35,283 bases of DNA, taken from assembly GCA_018066075.1 (NCBI GenBank), contig JAGHSB010000124.1, positions 1 through 35,283 of the forward strand, in the 5' to 3' direction. Positions 33,881 to 35,283 of this stretch are shown in pieces. Source of the stretch: Candidatus Treponema scatequi (lineage in GTDB: Bacteria > Spirochaetota > Spirochaetia > Treponematales > Treponemataceae). Made by a program: the position numbers and the translations under genes. Under the pieces are notes generated by a model, which was not told the origin of the DNA, did no database searches, and saw only the letters and a list, made by a program, of their open reading frames with translations. Position 1 is the stretch's first letter, and every line of letters begins with the position of its first letter.

Positions 33881-33911
33881 TAAAATATCAGGCGCTGTTT
33901 GTGATATCGGG

Positions 33912-33939
33912 CTGTCCGCATTTGAGGGCAGTTTTTTTA
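33912..33939 (+). terminator. Rho-independent terminator after the YgjP-like gene
   Basis: CTGTCC-gcatttga-GGGCAG followed by TTTTTTT. Confidence 0.7.
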
Positions 33940-33954
33940 TTTTTTAGGTGGAAT

Positions 33955-34108
33955 TTTCGTAAACGCGCGTATATTAAAGGACATCTTAGACGGATGGGGC
34001 AAGGTGTTTATGCCACAGAGTGCGGTTCGAAGAAATTCCACTTATGCAAAAGAATTCGGATGGCAATGGCTTTTTCCGCAGAAAAATCGCTGGGGTAATA
34101 GTGTAATA
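33955..34108 (+). pseudogene. Decayed fragment of an integron-integrase-like tyrosine recombinase
   Basis: Reading in the frame containing AAG GAC ATC TTA GAC GGA TGG gives ARILKDILDGWGKVFMPQSAVRRNSTYAKEFGWQWLFPQKNRWGNSVI*. The stretch V-x-x-P-x-A-x-R...A-x-E-F-G-W-Q-W-L-F-P resembles the IntI segment around V-x-LP-x-A-L-x-x-KYPNA...EWxWQxVFP. No core-binding domain and no C-terminal catalytic motifs are present. Confidence 0.6.
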
Positions 34109-34350
34109 TAAAATTGTATCCGGCAGGGAATTCTTAGATGGACAGGTTTGTGTAGTATCTTGGATTTTGATGGATGAGTAGAAGATAAAGAATTAAAAGA
34201 ATAACTACATGGTTAATGTGTTACGGAATAATTTATGGTATTTTTTATGGAATCATGTTTGCAAACGATTTGGATGACGGGGCAAGCCCGCCTATTTTTA
34301 TAGACAAAACAATTTTGAGTGTGGTAAAATAATCCCACAAAGAGAAACAA

Positions 34351-34610
34351 ATGCCAAGAATCGTTCCAATAAGGGATTTAAAGAACACAACGCCATTTCA
34401 ACTCTGTGCCATGAAGATGAGGAACCTATTTTCGTAACAAAAAATGGCTATGGTGATATGGTTTTAATGAGCATGGAAACTTACGAGAAAAATCTTTTTC
34501 TTGCAAATGTATACGGAAAACTTGAAGAAGCTAAAGAAGATATGAGAAACGGCAGGTATTCTTCTGTTGAAGATGCAATTTCCAGAATACGAGAAAAACA
34601 TGGCTTATAA
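34351..34610 (+). pseudogene. Phd/YefM-type antitoxin, frameshifted
   Basis: Frame 1: MPRIVPIRDLKNTT..., then out of frame; frame 2 resumes as AISTLCHEDEEPIFVTKNGYGDMVLMSMETYEKNLFLANVYGKLEEAKEDMRNGRYSSVEDAISRIREKHGL*. The shift lies around 34385-34400. Confidence 0.75.
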
Positions 34611-34908
34611 TGTAAGGATTATGGAAAAAGCAGAAGAAGATTTATCAGAAGATTACATTTCTGATACGCTTAAAAATCCAACAGCGGCAGACAATCTTCT
34701 CATAGACTTTCTTGGAAAAAAAGAAAATCTGGCGGATAATCCATACATGTATCCACTTAGCGATAATCAAGTATTACAGAACGATGGGTATCATCGTTTT
34801 CTTTTTTACAAAAATTTTATTGCATTATACTTAATTGATGATGAAGAAAAAATTGTCTCAATAATGCGTATTTCCTATGCAAAAAGAGATTATGCGAATT
34901 TGATATAG
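34600..34908 (+). CDS. ParE/RelE-like toxin
   Basis: 102 aa from ATG at 34600 (11-nt overlap with the antitoxin end); MAYNVRIMEKAEEDLSEDYISDTLKNPTAADNLLIDF...YHRFLFYKNFIALYLIDDEEKIVSIMRISYAKRDYANLI. Confidence 0.8.
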   Translation: MAYNVRIMEKAEEDLSEDYISDTLKNPTAADNLLIDFLGKKENLADNPYMYPLSDNQVLQNDGYHRFLFYKNFIALYLIDDEEKIVSIMRISYAKRDYANLI

Positions 34909-34914
34909 AAGAAA

Positions 34915-34981
34915 ACCTAACAAAGCTTCGTAGCCGACAAAAACTTTGTCACAAAAGTTGCGGTACAACCAATTGTTATAC
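34915..34981 (+). other. attC-like integron cassette recombination site
   Basis: Begins ACCTAAC and ends GTTATAC. Folded single strand: TAACAA/TTGTTA R boxes, 6-nt unpaired central spacer (AGCTTC vs AACCAA), L box GTA(G)CCG(A)CAA vs TTGCGGTAC with two extrahelical bases on one arm, terminal hairpin CTTT-GTCACA-AAAG. Starts 6 nt after the toxin stop codon. Confidence 0.82.
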
Positions 34982-35015
34982 GGACAGTCTGCACTGGGGC
35001 GCTTTTGGAGAAATA

Positions 35016-35283
35016 ATGAATTTAGTAATTGAAAGCTTAAAATCAAGGCATGAAATTATACAAATTCTTAAAGATAATACACACGAAGATATACCTATAT
35101 TAAAAGCTGTGTTCTCTGAGAATGTATTTAATAAATTCTTTCGTGGAAAAATTTCAGAAGATTCATTTAAAATCCAACGATGTGTAATAGGTCAAATGGG
35201 TTTCGTTCCATTAGCATATGGAACTATTACTGAAAATGAAAAAGGTACTACAATTAATATAACTATAAAACGAATGAAAGGAA
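35016..35283 (+). CDS. Hypothetical protein of the next gene cassette, truncated by the window's right edge
   Basis: Open frame from ATG 35016: MNLVIESLKSRHEIIQILKDNTHEDIPILKAVFSENVFNKFFRGKISEDSFKIQRCVIGQMGFVPLAYGTITENEKGTTINITIKRMKG... Not in the track because it has no stop in the window. Confidence 0.7.
   Translation, partial: MNLVIESLKSRHEIIQILKDNTHEDIPILKAVFSENVFNKFFRGKISEDSFKIQRCVIGQMGFVPLAYGTITENEKGTTINITIKRMKG

Follow-up and report, generated by a model that had tools for sequence, protein, structure and literature searches.

Does the right end of this Treponema contig run into the cassette array of an integron, and, if it does, what could still move the cassettes? The window analysed here is the whole of contig C99 (35,283 nucleotides) from a MAG of 2.3 Mb in 280 contigs with 1.13% contamination. 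Integron integrases bind the folded bottom strand of an attC site and exchange that strand at the R' box, and the window carries, close to its right end, an inverted repeat that an earlier note on this DNA had read as such a site.

The earlier note had thought integrons plausible in this group, and the literature agrees. Wu, Doak and Ye (2013; PMC3607928) described how integrons, with same-direction intI, have been gained and lost in Treponema. The same study reported chromosomal integrons in T. denticola, T. vincentii and T. succinifaciens, with attC sites 63-68 nt long in the first two, and an attC array without intI in T. phagedenis. A model of Spirochaetes attC sites is available from Ghaly et al. 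(2021; PMC8352920), and toxin-antitoxin cassettes are known from oral metagenomes (PMC4909258). We found attC sites of the type discussed here in 77 of the 119 Treponema genomes searched, so that integrons are common in the genus. Since Treponema integrons, and attC sites without intI, have already been published, the window locus adds another example.

The site itself is laid out as follows.

34915..34982, + strand: attC site as a whole (pfold 0.09)
34915-34921: R'' box, ACCTAAC, followed by AA
34924-34929: left spacer, AGCTTC, 6 nt
34930-34940: L'' box, GTA-G-CCG-A-CAA, with extrahelical G34933 and A34937
between the L boxes: A/T-rich terminal stem, AACTTT/AAAGTT
34958-34966: L' box, TTGCGGTAC
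34967-34972: right spacer, AACCAA, 6 nt, with TT next
34975-34981: R' box, GTTATAC

When the sequence was read again, every element that the earlier note had described was found: R'' and R' boxes with AAC...GTT in inverted pairing, the L box, symmetric unpaired spacers of 6 nt, and two extrahelical bases, both on one L arm. The position had also been given correctly, with 6 nt separating the stop codon of a small toxin ORF (last base 34908) from R''. The predicted crossover falls between G34975 and T34976, with the bottom strand as the recombining strand. A covariance model (R1) was built from 12 attC sites in the arrays of other Treponema species, aligned with the R/L/terminal-stem structure imposed and with the window site left out. 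Run against both strands of the 35-kb window, this genus-built model returned a single match, on the + strand at 34915-34982 (56.3 bits, E 2.1e-10), which is the claimed site. A scan of the window with Rfam at the gathering threshold gave zero matches. Among 101 distinct attC sites, in an alignment fitted to the structure, 94.9% of cells are paired and double changes number 143 versus 42.5 in shuffles (0/500); the L box covariation includes GTA/TAC versus AAA/TTT. We conclude that 34915-34982 is a genuine integron recombination site.

Plain DNA folding was dropped as evidence for the site. Owing to its A/T-rich terminal stem, the window attC gives an unremarkable result in minimum-free-energy folding (z -1.43 and -2.20). 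A difference of 0.3 kcal/mol separates the minimum from the canonical R/L fold, the predicted recombinogenic hairpin of the bottom strand; the pfold of this hairpin is low, however, 5-8 times below the values of 0.48-0.68 in the attC sites of five relatives, a difference again attributable to the A/T-rich terminal stem. The low pfold suggests that the window attC may recombine poorly.

What lies to the right of the site? Two features follow before the contig ends.

34983..35002, + strand: hairpin element at the start of the next cassette, GACAGTCTGCACTGGGGCGC, its left arm degenerate in the window
35016..35283, + strand: next-cassette gene, cut by the contig end, 97% aa identity to genes in genomes G091 and G137

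In relatives the right-hand gene is a membrane-protein-like ORF of ~150 aa. Homologues are rare: of 201 Treponema genomes, 9 have one, the window's own genome counted. Both G091 and G137 carry the gene flanked by two attC sites each. The DNA match to this cassette begins at the crossover region; leftward of that, the terminal stem of the attC differs. YgjP protein shows roughly 55-65% identity between species, and the ~97% of the cassette is so far above this figure that recent movement is indicated. By these comparisons, the right-hand gene is a mobile cassette, and the earlier claim that the window enters a cassette array has held up. The array is visible only to position 35283, 302 nt past the attC, and one attC lies within the contig. 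The rest of the genome speaks for an array as well: it encodes an integrase over threshold, and two more attC sites bring the assembled number to three. Because these two lie on small contigs (1.5 and 2.2 kb), the array has probably been scattered by assembly. A search of the same genome for further sites by the conserved GCACTGGGGCGCTTTT found it only on contig C79 and in the window. Taken together, the comparisons support the view that this gut Treponema, a close relative of Candidatus Treponema merdequi, has a chromosomal integron array that starts at the right end of the window.

The left flank holds what the earlier note had missed, the remains of an integron platform, followed by a gene pair.

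33911..33976, + strand: DNA homologous to the stretch upstream of intI on C79 (terminator, leader), 71% over 69 nt by blastn, common to the sister species (L068)
33974..34102, + strand: internally deleted intI remnant, TIGR02249 E 1.5e-4 in a search of the window's own genome, 79% nt identity to C79 intI
34133..34183, + strand: attI remnant, 83% nt identity to C79 attI, 54/54 to merdequi attI
34351..34610, + strand: YefM/Phd-type antitoxin gene, PF02604 E 4e-6, below the curated cut-off
34603..34908, + strand: ParE/RelE-type toxin gene, PF05016 E 4e-9

The decayed platform (33911-34183) begins with the match to intI-upstream DNA, jumps to the codons of the intI insert, and jumps again to attI. 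All that is left of intI, at 33974-34102, covers positions 185-227 of the IntI model, which is the integron-specific insert, and is 80% identical (aa) to C79 IntI over 41 residues, with the runner-up at 63%. The attI stops at 34183, where the crossover GTTAT and everything rightward have been replaced by AAAGAATTA. Judged from this alignment, the local platform of the window array is dead, with only a piece of intI left and no crossover in attI.

The small toxin ORF that precedes the attC is the toxin half of a YefM/ParE pair that carries indels. Genome G001 has this pair twice, both times in integron-associated stretches, and alignment with these two copies reveals a 1-nt deletion after ~12 codons of the antitoxin gene and the lack, in the toxin gene, of two codons that both copies have. 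The indels at 34351-34908 reflect either decay of the pair or assembly error, and the single-base deletion in the antitoxin may be of the latter kind. The G001 copies (L038:4930-4950 and L113:2622-2642) end in collapsed attC sites, CATAACAAAGGTTATGTGGAC and CCTAACAAAGGTTATATGGAC, in which the hairpin has been lost between GTT repeats. Known fused cassettes show such hairpin loss between GTT repeats.

With the local platform dead, the same genome offers a second one. On contig C79 an intact IntI (TIGR02249, 389.8 bits versus a cut-off of 265) is followed by HigBA genes and by an attI whose last bases are GTTATGTGGAC, so that both integrase and attachment site are present. This platform adjoins tsaD. 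The genome has no other copy of this gene, which shares 99% identity with its counterpart in Ca. T. merdequi, and C79 is therefore unlikely to be a stray contig. Merdequi is the nearest named relative at the window locus (87% for an MBL-fold protein, 97% for a YgjP-like protein). Directly after tsaD, merdequi has a gene that we take, from its sequence and without a family search, to be aroF, with no integron in between (L112); in the window's own genome the integron follows tsaD (L009, on C79) and aroF starts contig C21 (L156). From gene order, an intact platform here and none at the merdequi tsaD locus would imply either gain here or loss there. Among the loci compared, and leaving the merdequi orthologue aside, C79 gives the best match to the intI fragment and the attI of the window (80% aa, 86% nt), which points to duplicated platforms.

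The sister species has kept a different version of the decayed locus. Merdequi shares the left intI deletion junction and carries a different further deletion, and its attI still ends GTTATG, after which comes a different first cassette, itself ending in attC. Given that the attI junction of the window has been destroyed, a deletion in the window lineage could explain why the first cassettes of the two species are unlike. The merdequi assembly yielded no IntI over the cut-off. Merdequi contig C27 (L107:1975-2142), which differs from the contig of the window orthologue, holds a second intI remnant, an attI-like stretch and attC sites.

How, then, might the window array recombine? The bottom strand of 34915-34982 would fold into a hairpin for integrase binding, and strand exchange at G34975/T34976 would join or excise cassettes. 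The locus itself supplies neither an integrase nor a usable attI, so recombination would need the IntI of C79 and two attC sites. We infer that this intact and closely related enzyme could act in trans on the window array, most likely in attC x attC reactions. We regard it as very probable that the window shows the start of an array with a dead local platform and that any recombination would be carried out by C79 IntI in trans, the trans step being the inferred part. The sister species, with one platform decayed and another intact, provide a natural test of integrase supply in trans.

Several other explanations need to be weighed. The unexceptional plain folding would fit a palindrome that arose by chance, or a terminator of the usual kind behind the toxin gene. 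This reading is refuted by an E of 2e-10 under the covariance model made from true attC sites and by the sequence identity of the right half with the junctions of the same cassette elsewhere, and we give it next to no chance. It is also improbable that C79 is a contaminating contig and that the species has no integrase at all. The fragmented assembly, with its 280 contigs and 1.13% contamination, and a merdequi without intI over the cut-off would allow this; against it, C79 carries the only tsaD, 99% identical to that of merdequi, and the window attI and intI fragment are closest to C79.

The most serious alternative is that the locus is a frozen relic, in which intI and attI have been lost and the attC has fallen out of use. 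This account contradicts only the in-trans step, and it agrees with much of what is seen in the window: decayed intI and attI, toxin-antitoxin genes with indels, a degenerate cassette-start hairpin and an attC of low pfold. Moreover, the T. phagedenis array without intI has been regarded as static (Wu et al. 2013, PMC3607928). On the other hand, the right-hand cassette, at ~97% aa identity in other species compared with ~55-65% for YgjP, has moved recently, and the genome contains an intact paralogous IntI. We put the chance of a frozen relic somewhat below even, and consider it close in probability to supply in trans.

The window differs from the published Treponema integrons in belonging to another species group, a gut clade near Ca. 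T. merdequi, and in having a deleted platform with an intact paralogous one in the same genome. It resembles the T. phagedenis array in that attC and cassettes remain beside a lost intI, but an intI fragment is still recognisable in it, as is a remnant of attI, and its genome has a second IntI, which is intact. It likewise resembles a CALIN (the IntegronFinder class of attC clusters without integrase), in that no functional intI adjoins the attC, but differs from one in having attI and intI remnants; a single attC is visible before the contig end. The site is of the same type, and from the same phylum, as the Spirochaetes-type attC (PMC8352920), although it was scored here with a genus-built model.

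The junction after the attC holds one further element. A covarying hairpin with an ACT triloop opens nearly every cassette in the genus, directly after R'. At 67 of 84 attC sites in the loci compared, the next 24 nt contain a stem with 5 or more Watson-Crick pairs, against 5-13% at six other offsets and 6% in shuffles. Most loops read ACT and are closed by C-G, and some copies have a bulged base. Among 22 distinct bulge-free examples, chosen for having the hairpin, there are 37 double-change cells versus 10.7 in shuffled data, and a pattern search gave 71 matches among those listed, in 37 of 119 genomes, with 0 for the reversed pattern. At the loci scanned in other families of the order, which were short, there was no ACT-type match. 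In the literature searched we found no description of the hairpin, though one may exist elsewhere. A role as a general intrinsic terminator is not favoured, since the T run is missing after many copies. Perhaps the hairpin, as part of the mobile unit, serves recombination or translation, but the combined proposal, in which it does so and the paralogous integron also keeps the dead-platform array mobile in trans, seems to us rather unlikely. The element nevertheless offers a testable lead on cassette expression or recognition. One junction, GTTAGGTTGATGGCGCACTGCGCCAC (L038:6041), can be found in many Treponema genomes, suggesting a single widely shared cassette.
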